Shown here piece after piece: positions 1,303 through 12,440 of a stretch of 64,000 nucleotides of DNA. Made by a program: the position numbers and the translations under genes. This DNA comes from Jeotgalicoccus saudimassiliensis (GTDB taxonomy: Bacteria; Bacillota; Bacilli; Staphylococcales; Salinicoccaceae). The stretch covers positions 1,642,001-1,706,000 of the forward strand of contig NZ_CCSE01000001.1 in assembly GCF_000756715.1 (NCBI RefSeq), in the 5' to 3' direction. Below the pieces are notes generated by a model, which saw only the letters and a program-made list of their open reading frames with translations, was not told the DNA's origin and searched no databases. Position 1 is the stretch's first letter, and each line of letters starts with the position of its first letter.

Positions 1303-1340
1303 GAGCCTCTTCCGATATTATTCGGGGGAGGCTTTATTTT
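1303..1340 (+). terminator. Rho-independent terminator after GMC oxidoreductase
   Basis: AGCCTCTTCCGA pairs with TCGGGGGAGGCT (two G-U pairs) around a short AT loop, followed by a T-rich tail. It separates the GMC gene from the peptide/ABC/kinase cassette. Confidence 0.8.
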
Positions 1341-1394
1341 ATGTGATTTAATAAAATCAATACATTTTAATCAAATTTTAATTTTCTGATAACT

Positions 1395-1417
1395 GTTACT
1401 TAACTATCCGGGGGCAT
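1395..1417 (+). promoter_or_regulatory. Candidate SigB-type promoter of the Ser-rich peptide cassette
   Basis: GTTACT and GGGCAT boxes lie about 11 nt apart (13 if only GTTA is counted), roughly 36 nt upstream of the peptide ATG. They resemble the SigB consensus GTTTAA/GGGTAT, but the fit is poorer than for the other SigB candidates here. No good SigA -10 was seen in the same place. Confidence 0.3.
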
Positions 1418-1452
1418 TATAGAGTTAACACAAGCGAAGGGAGGAGAAATCC

Positions 1453-1557
1453 ATGAACTATTTCGAGGAAATTGAACCGGCAGTATCAAATGATTTCTCA
1501 ACAGATTCTTATTCAAGTGAATCAAGTGCTTCAGAGAGCAGCGTTTCATCTGACTAA
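1453..1557 (+). CDS. 34-residue Ser-rich acidic peptide, possible exported/modified peptide precursor
   Basis: This small ORF encodes MNYFEEIEPAVSNDF followed by a tail of Ser, Thr, Asp, Glu and Tyr only (plus one Ala and one Val); 13 of 34 residues are Ser. It has a very strong ribosome site (AAGGGAGGAG, about 7 nt before ATG), which argues that it is real. It has no Cys, no signal peptide and no membrane segment. It is the first gene of a probable operon with an ABC exporter and a soluble Ser/Thr kinase, and a hairpin lies just behind it, an arrangement common for RiPP or bacteriocin precursor genes. The SSESS/SESS/SSD motifs are acidic-directed Ser sites a kinase could modify. Function is inferred from context only; I do not recognise a family. 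Confidence 0.6.
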   Translation: MNYFEEIEPAVSNDFSTDSYSSESSASESSVSSD

Positions 1558-1601
1558 GATTCACAGTATACGCGGGTAAACATTTCAATATATCTTTGAA
1601 A

Positions 1602-1642
1602 CAGGCGGCCCGTGTGAGATGCGGTCCGCCTGCCTGCGTTTT
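1602..1642 (+). terminator. Attenuator-like hairpin between peptide gene and ABC transporter
   Basis: CAGGCGG pairs with CCGCCTG, with a further inner CCG/CGG pairing and a 9-nt loop, followed by a short GTTTT run. The weak T tract suggests partial termination, which would make the peptide transcript more abundant than the downstream genes. Confidence 0.55.
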
Positions 1643-1659
1643 GAAAGGATGAGGAACAA

Positions 1660-3531
1660 ATGCAAAGGTCAAATAAATACGACACGAATGAATCACTGTT
1701 TCAAAAGATCAACCGATTTTTTACTATGGAAGAAACTAAAGGGAACATTATCGGCAAAGCACCACCGGTTCCTGTAAAAGAAGTATTCCGCCGTTTTTGG
1801 CCGTACACAAAACATTACCGTAAATGGATTTTTGTCGGACTGATATTTATTGCACTGCAGCCGATGGCATTATCGGGTACAGTATGGCTGCTTCAAATAT
1901 TTATAGATAACGTGCTGGACGCGAGGAACTTAAGTCCGCTCTACTGGATTGTACTGCTCTATTTCGGGCTCAGCCTTGCTGCCGGAATATTTTCATTCTG
2001 CGGGACATTTACAGTAAACTGGGCAGGCCAGAAATTTGTCCTTGCACTGAGAAAGCATTTATATGAACATCTTCAAAGCTTGTCACTGCACTTTTTTGAA
2101 GGGCGGAAACTCGGCGATATTATCGCGAGACTGACGAGTGACATATCTTCAATTGAAAGACTGATTGTTACGGGCGCAACTTCTGCCTTGTCATATGTAT
2201 TCCAGCTTATTGTTTTTATCGGTATGTTATTTTTTATGGAATGGAAACTTGCATTGGCATCGATGATTGTTGTTCCGTTATTTTACATTATTACACGGTA
2301 CTTCTCGGTCCGTATGAAAATGGCCTCGCGTGAACGTTCGAGACGAATGGGCGCGATAAATTCCCTGACGGAGGAAAGTTTTTCAAACATATCGCTGATG
2401 CAGGCATTCAACCAGGAAGAAAACGAATCGAAAAAATTCCATAATCAGAACCTGGCTGCATTTACAGCGAAAATGTATAAAGTCCGGTTAAAATCAACTT
2501 TTACACCGGCAGTATCATTAATTGAAACGATCGGCACGCTGATTGTTATGGTATTCGGTGCATTCCTGCTGATGCAGGGCGAGGTAACAATCGGTGTACT
2601 TGTTGCATTCTTAACGCTCCTTCGGAGACTGTACAGTCCGGTCCGCGGGCTCAGCCGTCTTTTAAACACTATTTACTCGGCGTCGGCAAGTGCCGAACGT
2701 GTCATCGAGTTTATGGAGCAGACACCTGCAGTCAGCTCAAACGGTACGGAGAAAATTGGAAATGGGGAACCGGGCATTGCATTCAATAATGTATCTTTTG
2801 CGTATCCGCATAAGAAGCACAATGTGCTGTCGAATATTTCCTTTACGGTAAATGCCGGAGAGACGGTCGCACTGGTCGGGGCAAGCGGTGTCGGTAAATC
2901 GACAATCCTTAAAATGCTGCTCCGTTTTTATGAACCGACAGAAGGCAGTATTTACCTGAACGGTCAGCCGGTGGATACGGCGGATCTGCAGTCGCTCCGC
3001 AATCAGATTGCGGTCGTGTTTCAGGAAGCATTAATATTCGACGGTTCTGTCCGTGAAAATATTGCTTACGGTAAACCGGAAGCAGACGATGAAGAAGTTG
3101 TTGCGGCTGCAAAAAAAGCGGAAGCGCACAACTTTATCGAAAAAATGGTGGAGGGCTACGATACGAATGTCGGTCAGAAGGGACGTAACCTGTCGGGAGG
3201 ACAGCAGCAGCGCCTGGCGATTGCGAGGGCGATTATAAAAAACGCTCCGGTGCTGATTCTCGATGAGCCGGCAGACGGTCTCGACGGTTCCACGGAAAAA
3301 CGTGTCATGAAAGATCTGATGAAAGATACAGCGGCACTGATTATTACACATAATTTAAAAACTGCACGTGAAGCAGATAAAATTCTCTATATTCACGAAG
3401 GAGAAATTAATGAAACAGGTACGCATGATGAACTCATGAAGCTGAACGGGAACTATAAAAAACTTTATAACGATCAGCAGGATGAAGCGGAGTACGAAGA
3501 AGGAGTCGTACCGGAGCCGGCTGTTAAATAA
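1660..3531 (+). CDS. ABC exporter, fused permease/ATPase (MsbA/LmrA type)
   Basis: This is a 623-residue half-transporter that should work as a homodimer in the membrane. The first ~45 residues are a soluble extension, not a C39 peptidase. Residues ~55-340 form the six-helix exporter domain (SLHFFEGRKLGDIIARLTSD coupling region). The ATPase domain has Walker A GASGVGKST (~407-415), a Q-loop (VVFQEALIFDGSVREN), signature LSGGQQQR (~511), Walker B LILDEPADGLDG (~532) and the His switch LIITHNL. It lies 102 nt after the Ser-rich peptide gene and just upstream of the kinase gene, so peptide export is a reasonable inference. General drug or lipid export cannot be excluded. Ribosome site GGATGAGG supports the ATG at 1660. 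Confidence 0.9.
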   Translation: MQRSNKYDTNESLFQKINRFFTMEETKGNIIGKAPPVPVKEVFRRFWPYTKHYRKWIFVGLIFIALQPMALSGTVWLLQIFIDNVLDARNLSPLYWIVLLYFGLSLAAGIFSFCGTFTVNWAGQKFVLALRKHLYEHLQSLSLHFFEGRKLGDIIARLTSDISSIERLIVTGATSALSYVFQLIVFIGMLFFMEWKLALASMIVVPLFYIITRYFSVRMKMASRERSRRMGAINSLTEESFSNISLMQAFNQEENESKKFHNQNLAAFTAKMYKVRLKSTFTPAVSLIETIGTLIVMVFGAFLLMQGEVTIGVLVAFLTLLRRLYSPVRGLSRLLNTIYSASASAERVIEFMEQTPAVSSNGTEKIGNGEPGIAFNNVSFAYPHKKHNVLSNISFTVNAGETVALVGASGVGKSTILKMLLRFYEPTEGSIYLNGQPVDTADLQSLRNQIAVVFQEALIFDGSVRENIAYGKPEADDEEVVAAAKKAEAHNFIEKMVEGYDTNVGQKGRNLSGGQQQRLAIARAIIKNAPVLILDEPADGLDGSTEKRVMKDLMKDTAALIITHNLKTAREADKILYIHEGEINETGTHDELMKLNGNYKKLYNDQQDEAEYEEGVVPEPAVK

Positions 3532-3547
3532 TACTGGGGGTAAAGTA

Positions 3548-4387
3548 ATGAAAACTGAGGATGAAGCATTAATTGAACCGCTCGAGCAGGGGGATACTCT
3601 GATTCCGGGATATAAAGTTGTCGCGCATATGAGACGGGGGAAAGACTGTGATCTGTATCATCTCTGGAGCGAAGAGAGAATGTGCAGCACAATCGGCAAA
3701 ACGATTCAGCCGAACGTCGCGTCAAAAGATAAGGCCGTGGACAGGTTGATTCGTGAAGGAGAACTGATTACACGTCTGTCCCATCCGAATTTAATCCGGG
3801 GGTATGAACTGCAAATGGCACCCGAACCGGTAGTGATTCAGGAAACGCTGACCGGTGAAACGATATCTCATCTGGTGCGCCGGATTTATAAAAAGGATGA
3901 AGAGCTGCCGCTAATGCAGATTGCGCATTTTGGTAAGCAGATTGCTTCAGTCGTTAATTATCTGCATCAAAATAATATACTGCACCTGGATATTAAGCCG
4001 TCCAATATTATTTCGCAGCCGCCGCTCGCCAAACTGTTCGATCTGAATCTGGTCACTGAACCCGGGACGATCAGAAAGGGGACAGGCACGCGGCCTTATA
4101 TGTCGCCTGAACAGGCTTCCGGTGAACCGTTAACTCCGGCAGCAGATGTATGGGGCATCGGAGTGGTACTGTTCTTTATGATGACGGGTGAACGGCCGTT
4201 TAAAACATATGAGGACAACAAATACGAACAGCTGGAACGGAGAGCTGTTCCGGTATCCGATTTAAGAAAGGCCGCACCGGATGATGCGCTTATTGCGATG
4301 GTGGACCGCTGCCTGGATCCGAACCCCAAAAACCGTCCGGCAGCCGCCGAAGTATTTAAAATATGTGGGGACTATATCCGCAGTTAA
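3548..4387 (+). CDS. Soluble Ser/Thr protein kinase (Hanks type, no PASTA or membrane segment)
   Basis: A 279-residue protein that is nearly all kinase domain. Visible elements are a candidate ATP-Lys (K51, IGKTI), the alpha-C Glu (E72 in REGELITRLSHPN), the catalytic loop HLDIKPSNI (D148, K150, N153), a metal-binding Asp in DLN (D165, where DFG is usual), the activation segment ending in YMSPEQ, and ADVWGIGVVLFFMMTGERPF. The Gly-rich loop is degenerate. No transmembrane helix or extracellular PASTA repeats are present, so it is not PrkC/Stk1. I chose ATG 3548 (GGGGG site, 8 nt) over the ATG at 3482, which lies inside the ABC gene. It closes the peptide/exporter/kinase cassette and is followed by a terminator. 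Confidence 0.85.
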   Translation: MKTEDEALIEPLEQGDTLIPGYKVVAHMRRGKDCDLYHLWSEERMCSTIGKTIQPNVASKDKAVDRLIREGELITRLSHPNLIRGYELQMAPEPVVIQETLTGETISHLVRRIYKKDEELPLMQIAHFGKQIASVVNYLHQNNILHLDIKPSNIISQPPLAKLFDLNLVTEPGTIRKGTGTRPYMSPEQASGEPLTPAADVWGIGVVLFFMMTGERPFKTYEDNKYEQLERRAVPVSDLRKAAPDDALIAMVDRCLDPNPKNRPAAAEVFKICGDYIRS

Positions 4388-4404
4388 TGTCATTAATTAC
4401 TCGA

Positions 4405-4434
4405 AACTCCCGACTGCCGGTCAGGGAGTTTTTT
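4405..4434 (+). terminator. Terminator after the kinase gene
   Basis: AACTCCC pairs with GGGAGTT, with an inner GAC/GTC extension, followed by TTTTTTC. Confidence 0.85.
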
Positions 4435-10460: not shown

Positions 10461-12440
10461 ATGATTACAGGGGAACGTACGACGATTGGAATTTTAGCCC
10501 ACGTAGATGCAGGGAAAACAACGTTGACTGAAGCGCTGCTGTATCATGCAGGAGCGATTTCAAAACGGGGACGGGTCGATCACGGCGATACATATTTTGA
10601 TTTCGAGTCTATTGAAAGAAGCCGTGGAATTACAGTGTCATCCAAACAGGTTGACTTTGAAGTCGGTAATCGTAAATTCACTTTAATCGATACACCGGGG
10701 CACGCTGACTTGTCCGCAGAAATGGAACGGTCACTGCAAATACTGGACCTGGCAATTATAGTGGTCAGTGCGGTCGACGGGGTGCAGTCACATACCGTAA
10801 CAATTTTTCAGCTGCTTGAAAAATACGAAGTACCGGCGATTATTTATATTAATAAAAATGACCGGCCGAGTGTCGATAAAGATAAAACTATGGGCAGCCT
10901 GCAGGAACTCGATGAACGCTGTGCATTATTTTCAGAAGCAGATTCAGAGCTGAGCGAATCATTTATCGAACAGCTGGCAATGCAGGACGAGGAACTGCTG
11001 GAGATGTTTATGGAAGGAACTGAAGATCAGGCATTCTGGTCTGATGCTGCTAAAAAAGCGTTGATGAACAGAACGGTATTTCCAAGTGTCCGGGGTTCAG
11101 CGCTGAACGGTAACGGTATCGGTGAAGTCATTAATATAATGGAAAAATTAACCGAATCAAAAGAATATATAGAAGAAGCCGGTGCACGGGTTTATAAGAT
11201 TATGCACGACGAAAAAGGGCAGAGACTGACATTGTTTAAAGTATTAGGCGGTACTTTTCGAATTAAGGATATGGTCTATTACAAAGATTCGGACGGCGAA
11301 AAAATCAATCAGCTGAGGAGGCTGAATGGCGGGAAATTTGAAGGGGTCAGTGAAGCAGCAGCGGGTGATGTCTGCACGGCAATCGGCATTCAAAATGCAG
11401 AACTCGGTGATATTATTGCATTGTCGGAAGCGGATATTGAACTGTTTTCTGAGTCAAAGGTACCGGAGCTGCAGCCGGTAATGGAAGCATCTCTCGTGCT
11501 GCCGGAAGGTATTGACGTATTTACAGCGATGAAGACACTCAGACAGCTTGAAGCAGAAGAACCGGAAATTGGTCTCAGAACTTCTGAAACAACAGGTGAT
11601 ATACATATGCGTGTCATGGGCACGATTCATATGGAAGTACTGACAGAATCTATTCGTGACAAATACGGAATGAATATCACATTCGGTCCGCCGGTGATTT
11701 TATACAGAGAAACGATTGAAGAAAGCATTGTCGGCTACGGTCATTTTGAACCGCTCGGCCATTATGCGGAAGTGCAGCTGCGTATCGAACCCGGGCAGAA
11801 TGGACAGGGTATTATCGCAAAAAATGAAGCGAATACAGATGACTTGAAAATTCAGTTTCAGAAACTGATTATGACTCATATTAAAGAAAAAGAGCATTTG
11901 GGTGTACTTACCGGGGCACCGCTGACGGATGTCACAATTACTTTAATGGCAGCGAAAACAGCGTTAAGAGAAACACAGGGCGGCGATTTGCGTCAGGCAA
12001 CTTACCGCGGGGTCAGACAGGGTTTAATGAAAGCTAAATCAGTTATCCTCGAACCGTGGTATTCATTTGAAATCACGCTGCCGGCAGACGCAGCGGGACG
12101 TGCAATGTCAGATGTTCAGAGACTTCACGGTGAGTCCGGTGATATGGCGCAGCTCGGAGAAAACAAAGTATCGCTAAAAGGGGAAGTACCGGTCGCGACA
12201 TTTGTAGATTATCCGATTGAACTCGCATCATATACTAAAGGCGAAGGAACTGTGTCGCTGCAATCGGCAGGATACCGACCGTGTCACAATCCGGAAGAAG
12301 TGATTGACCAGGCGGATTATAATCCCGAAAACGACCTCGATAACACACCGAACTCCATTTATTTTAAAAAAGGTGCAGGCTATGAAGTGAAGTGGTACGA
12401 CATTGATGAAGTCCGTCATATTAAAGGAAACTTTAATTAA
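10461..12440 (+). CDS. Translation-factor GTPase of the TetM/TetO/EF-G class (ribosomal-protection-like)
   Basis: 659 residues. G motifs are G1 AHVDAGKTT, G2 region RGITV, G3 DTPGHADL and G4 NKND, then the EF-G-like domains II-V (VYKIMHDEKGQRLTLFKVLGG; TGDIHMRVMGTIHMEVL; GPPVILYRET). The order matches tetracycline ribosomal protection proteins, which are about 640 residues long, more than EF-G (about 690) or LepA. No leader peptide or attenuator typical of mobile tet(M) is present, and base use matches the neighbours, so it seems a resident chromosomal paralogue. Whether it protects against tetracycline is unknown. The G3 segment differs from TetM (HADLSAEMERS versus HMDFLAEVYRS). Confidence 0.8.
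   Translation: MITGERTTIGILAHVDAGKTTLTEALLYHAGAISKRGRVDHGDTYFDFESIERSRGITVSSKQVDFEVGNRKFTLIDTPGHADLSAEMERSLQILDLAIIVVSAVDGVQSHTVTIFQLLEKYEVPAIIYINKNDRPSVDKDKTMGSLQELDERCALFSEADSELSESFIEQLAMQDEELLEMFMEGTEDQAFWSDAAKKALMNRTVFPSVRGSALNGNGIGEVINIMEKLTESKEYIEEAGARVYKIMHDEKGQRLTLFKVLGGTFRIKDMVYYKDSDGEKINQLRRLNGGKFEGVSEAAAGDVCTAIGIQNAELGDIIALSEADIELFSESKVPELQPVMEASLVLPEGIDVFTAMKTLRQLEAEEPEIGLRTSETTGDIHMRVMGTIHMEVLTESIRDKYGMNITFGPPVILYRETIEESIVGYGHFEPLGHYAEVQLRIEPGQNGQGIIAKNEANTDDLKIQFQKLIMTHIKEKEHLGVLTGAPLTDVTITLMAAKTALRETQGGDLRQATYRGVRQGLMKAKSVILEPWYSFEITLPADAAGRAMSDVQRLHGESGDMAQLGENKVSLKGEVPVATFVDYPIELASYTKGEGTVSLQSAGYRPCHNPEEVIDQADYNPENDLDNTPNSIYFKKGAGYEVKWYDIDEVRHIKGNFN

Follow-up and report, generated by a model that had tools for sequence, protein, structure and literature searches.

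A cassette of a Ser-rich peptide gene, an ABC exporter gene and a stand-alone Hanks-type kinase gene in Jeotgalicoccus and other Firmicutes, a candidate source of linear phosphorylated peptides

Background

In paeninodin-type lasso peptides, a serine of a ribosomally synthesised and post-translationally modified peptide (RiPP) is phosphorylated by an HprK-like kinase, in clusters that also comprise a macrolactam cyclase, a RiPP recognition element (RRE), a leader peptidase and an exporter, and the product is lasso-shaped. In class III and IV lanthipeptides, serines and threonines of the precursor are phosphorylated by the Hanks-like kinase domain of LanKC or LanL, which is fused to a lyase and a cyclase; the phosphate is eliminated and the cores usually contain cysteine. 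We describe here a locus that recalls both systems through a kinase that would act on serines of a RiPP-like precursor and, for the former, through an exporter, but differs from them in these other respects. It is a cassette of three genes, encoding a short Ser-rich peptide, an ATP-binding cassette (ABC) exporter and a soluble Hanks-type Ser/Thr kinase, located in a stretch of 64,000 nucleotides (hereafter the window) of the 2.19-Mb genome of Jeotgalicoccus saudimassiliensis (contig NZ_CCSE01000001.1, positions 1,642,001 to 1,706,000).

The initial annotation of the window considered this locus a new phosphopeptide system, a claim that has to be narrowed, as linear RiPPs bearing phosphate are already published, in one case with both a kinase and an exporter of the MsbA-like type, and that holds insofar as the enzymes reported there differ (PMC13381572, PMC9259500). 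The linear polyphosphorylated peptides (LPP) of Bacillota derive from precursors whose clusters also contain an HprK-like kinase, an MsbA-like transporter, a discrete RRE, a SipW-like peptidase and a nucleoside triphosphate (NTP) transferase; several phosphates are carried by one serine (S3), and the final product was not identified in that report (PMC13381572). The present cassette resembles LPP clusters in its short precursors with a conserved N-terminus and a variable C-terminus (one to three per cluster in LPP), its dedicated kinase, its MsbA-like transporter, its very patchy spread in Bacilli and a linear peptide with phosphate on serine, found in LPP and presumed for the cassette (PMC13381572). 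It differs from them by its kinase, which belongs to the Pkinase family (PF00069) and has a predicted PknB-like fold, by precursors with a Ser-repeat tail, and by the LPP leader motif YxxPxVLxHQxIxFETxxS, seen by eye in 0 of the 24 cassette precursors; moreover, no RRE, SipW-like peptidase or NTP transferase was recognised between the cassette terminators.

Phospeptin (EmbA/EmbM), from an uncultivated marine lineage, bears phosphate on threonine and likewise associates one precursor with a sole modifying enzyme to give a poly-phosphorylated linear peptide (PMC9259500). However, EmbM corresponds to the dehydration domain of a lanthipeptide synthetase in which the residues for elimination are mutated (PMC9259500), whereas the cassette has a Hanks kinase; Pfam searches found no such dehydration domain on the ABC and kinase proteins of the cassette. 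A provisional survey of the literature, from which most subscription papers and bioRxiv were absent, returned no description of a cassette combining a Hanks kinase, a Ser-rich peptide and an exporter. Linear phosphorylated RiPPs being already known, the cassette would be a variant of these. We propose, with a probability of about 0.6, that it is a RiPP-like cassette in which the Hanks kinase phosphorylates serines of the precursor and the ABC protein exports the product.

Results and discussion

Co-occurrence of the peptide and kinase genes

The full cassette was found in three Jeotgalicoccus, three Salinicoccus/Lacicoccus, Oceanobacillus senegalensis and two relatives of the latter, in the common order of peptide gene(s), ABC exporter gene and gene of the soluble Hanks-type kinase. 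With one decayed copy (in genome G025) and one exporter-less copy (in genome G574), the loci amount to 11 in Firmicutes, and at all of them, the decayed one included, a kinase gene accompanies the precursor, as expected for a RiPP precursor and its enzyme gene. In protein searches, three of nine genus genomes, seven of 33 family genomes and seven of 157 Staphylococcales genomes had a kinase orthologue (69-100% identity), nine of the 16 matching Staphylococcales genomes not being counted (E 6e-28 to 5e-26, 31-38% identity, frames of 619-661 aa); a peptide query detected precursors in 7 of the 157, identical to the seven with the kinase (E <= 4.6e-83). Among 159 genomes of the Oceanobacillus family, four contained the kinase and a peptide query retrieved the peptide in three, that of the fourth (G574) being found by listing its open reading frames (ORFs). 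Peptide and kinase were never found apart in the 316 genomes searched for both (157 + 159), even without the exporter, and this constitutes the strongest support for our proposal. At the exporter-less locus, where the best ABC match in the genome reaches 35%, the precursor and kinase genes adjoin, and their joint retention indicates that the peptide is tied to the kinase.

A scan of genome contigs with two Firmicutes-like peptide patterns returned the loci of J. psychrophilus, J. aerolatus, Salinicoccus kekensis, Salinicoccus sp. YB14-2, Lacicoccus qingdaonensis and O. senegalensis; a seventh locus, with a Pirellulaceae kinase at 22% identity (L039), was left aside. At E 1e-40, evenly drawn samples of the class (398 genomes) and of the Oceanobacillus order (397) added no further case. 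The cassette looks rare and patchy.

The decayed copy (L023, G025:C8, reverse strand) has its exporter gene cut to an N-terminal remnant and a stop in its kinase gene; its precursor is open and carries a unique cysteine, and the hairpin described below is largely lost. Two sister genomes (G002 and G003) display an empty site: a single terminator-like repeat, similar by eye to that of the right border, comes directly after the oxidoreductase gene and before the cupin gene, the two genes bordering the cassette in the window (Table 1). Of the nine genus genomes, five were found to have the cupin gene, and the cassette is present in three of these five; the four others were unreadable at this point. 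Neither of the two bordering genes was matched in the stretches around the Salinicoccus/Lacicoccus cassettes. The clean empty site and the differing flanks fit a gain and loss of the cassette as a unit.

Precursor peptides

The ORF of the window encodes the peptide MNYFEEIEPAVSNDFSTDSYSSESSASESSVSSD, with 12 Ser, 8 Asp/Glu, and neither Lys, Arg nor Cys; the 13 Ser out of 34 residues counted initially become 12 out of 34. Richness in serine alone was rejected as proof of a real gene, since 4 of the 552 short ORFs of the window (25-60 aa) reach at least 33% Ser, a level attained by 1 of 16,212 short ORFs in a simulation of 20 sequences of 64 kb. When at least 30% Ser is combined with the absence of Lys and Arg, the precursor ORF is the only one retained among the 552. 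That it is real and not due to chance follows from its conservation in other genomes: the initial annotation had staked its claim in advance on conserved Ser-rich small ORFs beside homologous ABC/kinase pairs, and these were found as 24 genes of 32-41 codons distributed over the 11 loci. A purine-rich Shine-Dalgarno sequence was seen by eye ahead of 23 of the 24, the remaining one having N letters there.

All 24 precursors fit the N-terminal motif M-x-x-F-x-x-[ILVM]-x-[PS]-[AT], a pattern written after their inspection, with fixed F4, P/S9 and A/T10. In the leader codons 2-19, the proportions of synonymous (pS) and nonsynonymous (pN) differences are 0.54 and 0.12 (59 between-genome pairs in six Staphylococcaceae), giving a pN/pS ratio of 0.22, which is a raw pairwise value uncorrected for relatedness; the reading frame is therefore maintained as a protein. 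Beyond this leader the tails vary: Ser-rich and acidic in Jeotgalicoccus, Oceanobacillus, G591 and G549, composed of SSA repeats in Salinicoccus and Lacicoccus, and of Ser/Thr/Gly in G574. Lys occurs once and Arg never in the whole set, and Cys once, at the decayed locus.

The precursor gene is in tandem at 8 of the 11 loci. Single in the window, G025 and G574, it is present in two copies in J. psychrophilus, J. aerolatus, S. kekensis, L. qingdaonensis and G549, three in G591, at least three in YB14-2 (which contains an N stretch) and five, near-identical, in O. senegalensis, where a sixth, decayed copy (inside the ORF L038 3075-3170) was left out of the 24. The precursors thus have the features of a RiPP, i.e. 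a short ribosomal peptide with a conserved leader and a variable, low-complexity core.

The kinase

Pfam recognised a single domain type in the kinase, without any sensor domain, and no long hydrophobic stretch was seen by eye, in agreement with the membrane-free kinase initially described with DLN in place of DFG. The DLN was confirmed and is shared by 9 of 11 aligned kinases (ten from Firmicutes and one from Streptomyces nigrescens, the S. cathayae kinase being left out of alignments and trees), the two others having DLS. Residues K51, E70, H146, D148, K150, N153 and D165 are invariant in the 11 sequences, and all those of active Hanks kinases (beta-3 Lys, alpha-C Glu, HxD, Asn and the Asp of DxG) are present. 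Where a Gly-rich loop is usual, the ten Firmicutes kinases have R-R-G-[KQ]-D-C-D and that of S. nigrescens has a different sequence. A structure predicted from ten sequences (mean predicted local distance difference test, pLDDT, 75.9; below 50 for residues 159-177) has PknB as top match (Foldseek E 1.1e-13, TM 0.64 by query length, root-mean-square deviation 6.4). By its predicted fold and catalytic residues, the protein would thus resemble PknB/PrkC-type Hanks kinases, but it differs from them in consisting of the domain alone, in its divergence and altered Gly loop and in its linkage to a peptide gene; eight cassette kinases score 93-117 bits with the NCBIfam PknB model, with which two control domains of PrkC type reach 371 and 477. 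We conclude that it is a divergent, stand-alone Hanks kinase and, judging from its residues, probably an active one.

The exporter and the proposed mechanism

Pfam assigned the exporter to ABC_membrane (1.2e-49) and ABC_tran (1.3e-39), with weak ATPase-type matches in addition, and found in it no N-terminal C39 peptidase domain, in which it differs from C39 peptidase-containing ABC exporters. Among 198 NCBIfam models, MsbA_lipidA ranked first with 449.6 bits, below its cut-off of 602, and the exporter is below the cut-off of all 25 NCBIfam models among the matches listed. Its comparison with Sav1866 (2hyd) gave an E-value of 1.3e-106, the lowest PDB E-values being those of two-repeat ABCB1-type pumps. 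Identities of the exporter and the kinase are correlated (r = 0.986, 45 pairs, 10 loci) and the two proteins diverge in step, a statement based on this correlation and not on tree congruence, with two of the seven inner branches of the kinase tree starred. Near its N-terminus, before the first membrane helix, the exporter has a conserved segment of the type [AS]PPVPxxxxFRxFWPY (window 1759-1806), closely matched in Streptomyces exporters, which is a possible docking site.

The co-occurrence of peptide and kinase, the intact catalytic residues and the RiPP-like precursors support a modified, exported peptide; phosphorylation, the role of the leader, export and any function of the peptide outside the cell are inferred. 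In the proposed mechanism, the precursor, encoded by one to five tandem genes, would be strongly translated and made in excess. The stand-alone kinase would bind its N-terminal segment (M-x-x-F-x-x-hydrophobic-x-P-A) as a recognition element and phosphorylate several Ser/Thr of the tail, yielding a linear polyanionic phosphopeptide that the half-transporter, as a homodimer, would export. The leader would be either kept or cut off by a host protease, as no dedicated protease was seen in the cassette.

The peptide could also be exported unmodified, as a leaderless bacteriocin or pheromone, the ABC protein serving for export or immunity and the kinase regulating the transporter or sensing the peptide. 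An MsbA/Sav1866-type exporter adjoining a small peptide with tandem copies agrees with this possibility, as would the proximity of the modelled kinase fold to the signalling kinase PknB. It is nonetheless unlikely, considering that peptide and kinase are kept together without exporter in G574, that the kinase has no sensor domain and that Ser-rich acidic tails are unlike those of membrane-active bacteriocins.

Upstream boxes, intergenic hairpin and attenuation

The initial annotation placed an attenuator-like hairpin after the precursor gene. The hairpin itself is real and conserved in place. Its region (1555-1662) folds at -34 kcal/mol (z -3.3), with 0 of 200 shuffles equally good, and all nine loci with an exporter gene have a GC-rich hairpin at this position, the weakest being that of G591 (z -1.3, 24 of 200 shuffles as good). 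Its role as an attenuator is not established: it is no canonical terminator, having no U-run and being absent from the list of the terminator scan, and 0 of 12 pairs changed on both sides, so that it is conserved in sequence and place only; one stem pair is mismatched in the window and J. psychrophilus. Most likely the hairpin sets the level of the precursor above that of the exporter.

This organisation raises the possibility that the Ser-rich ORF is a cis-acting leader that senses seryl-tRNA together with the hairpin and thereby controls the exporter and kinase genes. The succession of a short Ser-rich ORF, a stable hairpin at a constant place and structural genes is in its favour. Yet tandem copies have their own ribosome sites at 8 of the 11 loci, and four spacers between them fold weakly (-1.1 to -6.2 kcal/mol, against -16.8 to -37 for hairpin-bearing spacers); the stem lacks the U-run of a terminator/antiterminator, no alternative structure having been sought; the N-terminal residues are conserved against synonymous change; and the near absence of Lys and Arg from the 24 peptides, as well as the His-rich tails in Streptomyces, also oppose this explanation, which we hold to be very unlikely.

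Upstream of the precursor gene, the sigma-70 promoter scan gave no match on the + strand at the box array (Table 1). All seven Staphylococcaceae loci, and none of the four other Firmicutes loci, have the pattern TTTTAA[TC]-N4-TTT[TA]AA[TC] with CTGAT[AG]A at a fixed distance after it, 66-90 bases ahead of the first precursor; the array with its 11-bp spacing is retained even at the decayed locus. This spacing resembles the layout of sites of OmpR-family response regulators. At the pstS loci of the genus (L090-L098), a four-box array of TT[TAC]A[CT][AT] words with 11-bp spacing is present in 9 of 9 genomes, and these TTTACA/TTAACA-like arrays of nine Jeotgalicoccus-group genomes are likely PhoP sites. 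The pair TTTTAAT-N4-TTTTAAT, present at the peptide loci instead, is found at 0 of 9 pstS loci. The layout being alike and the words different, a control of the cassette by PhoP or phosphate is not established.

Relation of the kinase to lanthipeptide synthetases and defence systems

As LanL and LanKC hold kinase domains of this kind, the cassette kinase might represent the first half of a dehydration, with an unlinked lyase forming dehydroalanines. Scored with the NCBIfam LanL model, eight cassette kinases obtain 73.8-110.6 bits, and for three of them no other model scores higher. However, two PrkC controls obtain 87.8 and 97.9 bits, both exceeded by only two of the eight (108.8 and 110.6), and a special kinship to LanL is not supported against these controls; a distant link may exist. 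Moreover, the 279-aa protein is a kinase domain alone, differing in this from class III/IV synthetases; no lyase or cyclase is found among the cassette genes (an unlinked lyase elsewhere was not searched for); and the Ser/Thr and Cys core of these lanthipeptides has no counterpart here, the only one of the 24 precursors to contain Cys being that of the decayed locus. Such a route is highly improbable. Least probable of all is a toxin-antitoxin, immunity or defence function, the peptide being an inhibitor or toxin and the kinase its neutraliser: the cassette is compact and patchily spread and PADLOC kinase models match (mad6 3.3e-42, PD-T4-6 9e-36), but these matches cover only the kinase domain and were judged generic, no ordinary kinase having been scanned as control, no partner proteins of the mad6 or PD-T4-6 systems lie beside the kinase, and the peptide, in up to five copies, is acidic and not hydrophobic.

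Distant versions in Streptomyces and points against phosphorylation

Two Streptomyces plasmids carry a small ORF, an ABC gene and a kinase gene in this order, with 46% (ABC) and 40% (kinase) identity for S. nigrescens. In S. cathayae, the matches to both the ABC protein and the kinase are split into pieces, and the two may be broken. The two small ORFs start with MGVLQILTPA and MAIFSSLMPA (the latter annotated in its record as WP_279331629.1), residues 9 and 10 being Pro-Ala, like those of most precursors from Firmicutes. When small-ORF starts in Streptomyces were compared with the leader motif of the Firmicutes precursors, both precursor positions matched, as did 1 of the other 1,127 starts; this comparison is not independent since it was devised after these peptides were seen. 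Their tails, with few Ser/Thr, are rich in Arg/His/Asp/Gly for the former and in His/Gly/Asp for the latter. These two loci are outside the count of 11, and the coverage of actinobacteria corresponds to plasmid records and to the contig scan with Firmicutes-like patterns, by which peptides of the Streptomyces type would be missed. Two other candidate relatives were discarded: a Nonomuraea ABC protein (40%), for which no kinase resembling that of S. nigrescens was found at 1e-20 and none of 235 small-ORF starts had the leader motif, and a Paenibacillus one (34%), located in an unrelated operon.

Several observations weigh against phosphorylation and export as we propose them. As regards poly-phospho-Ser as a general function, the strongest is the His-rich composition of the Streptomyces tails, which argues against Ser-richness as a defining feature of the wider family; multiple Ser phosphorylation cannot be the function of this family as a whole. 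The G574 locus is devoid of an orthologous exporter; as the peptide queries missed its precursor, diverged orphan peptides without kinase could have escaped as well. The kinase, whose altered Gly loop suggests that its handling of ATP may differ, could have the transporter or something else as target.

A broader interpretation, quite unlikely at this stage, would see in these loci exported low-complexity "polyelectrolyte" RiPPs of two phyla, sharing the leader motif, the stand-alone Hanks kinase and the exporter, with a variable core, poly-phospho-Ser in Firmicutes and His/Asp/Gly-rich in Streptomyces. Once secreted, these peptides would bind metals or minerals, as bacterial analogues of casein- or phosvitin-like phosphopeptides, and they would be the first RiPPs to owe their final chemistry to a soluble Hanks-type kinase alone.

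Layout of the cassette in the window

The initial annotation had placed the parts correctly, from the 34-codon ORF, preceded by a strong ribosome site, through the hairpin to the genes of the ABC exporter and the DLN kinase. Its description of both borders as terminators stands for the left one, listed by the terminator scan; the right one was recognised by eye and is absent from that list. Between these borders, only the precursor, ABC and kinase genes were recognised, in an analysis limited to the cassette and, within it, to ORFs other than the overlapping mechanical ones. Elsewhere in the window (10461-12440, + strand) lies an EF-G-like GTPase with GTP_EFTU, EFG_IV and EFG_C domains, whose general make-up we take to be like that of ribosomal-protection (Tet-type) proteins.

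Table 1 Positions of the cassette features and neighbouring genes in the window, and of the small ORFs on Streptomyces plasmids
Feature	Position	Strand	Remarks
GMC-type oxidoreductase gene	ends 1291		Upstream neighbour, followed by the left-border terminator
Intrinsic terminator	1303-1334	+	Left border; terminator scan, 13 pairs, T-run
Cassette as a whole	~1340-4434	+	Precursor, ABC exporter and kinase genes between the borders
Four 7-bp boxes	1365-1404	+	TTTTAAT, TTTTAAT, TGATAAC, ACTTAAC; 11-bp spacing
-10-like element	~1415-1421		By eye
Ribosome-binding site GGGAGGAG	1439-1446	+	Six bases upstream of the precursor ATG
Ser-rich precursor gene	1453-1557	+	34 aa; residues 1-19 conserved, then Ser/Asp/Glu tail
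GC-rich hairpin	1602-1632	+	Between precursor and exporter genes; no U-run
ABC exporter half-transporter gene	1660-3531	+	623 aa; MsbA/Sav1866 type
Stand-alone Hanks-type Ser/Thr kinase gene	3548-4387	+	279 aa; Pkinase (PF00069) 1.9e-36
Imperfect inverted repeat with T-run	~4404-4434	+	Right border; terminator-like, by eye
Cupin gene	4478		Downstream neighbour, past the right-border repeat
Formate/nitrite transporter gene	4800		Downstream neighbour
Streptomyces plasmid small ORFs	L053 7643-7804; L054 7622-7798		His/Asp/Gly-rich tails; ahead of the ABC-kinase pair

Conclusions

If the kinase modifies the peptide, a eukaryote-like Ser/Thr kinase would have been recruited for the making of a secreted product and not for signalling. 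The cassette would then be one more case in which linear phosphorylated RiPPs arose independently, besides phospeptin (lanthipeptide synthetase) and LPP (HprK), and would offer a three-gene, easily reconstituted route to densely phosphorylated peptides. It would also raise the testable question of the role that a polyanionic peptide plays outside the cell.

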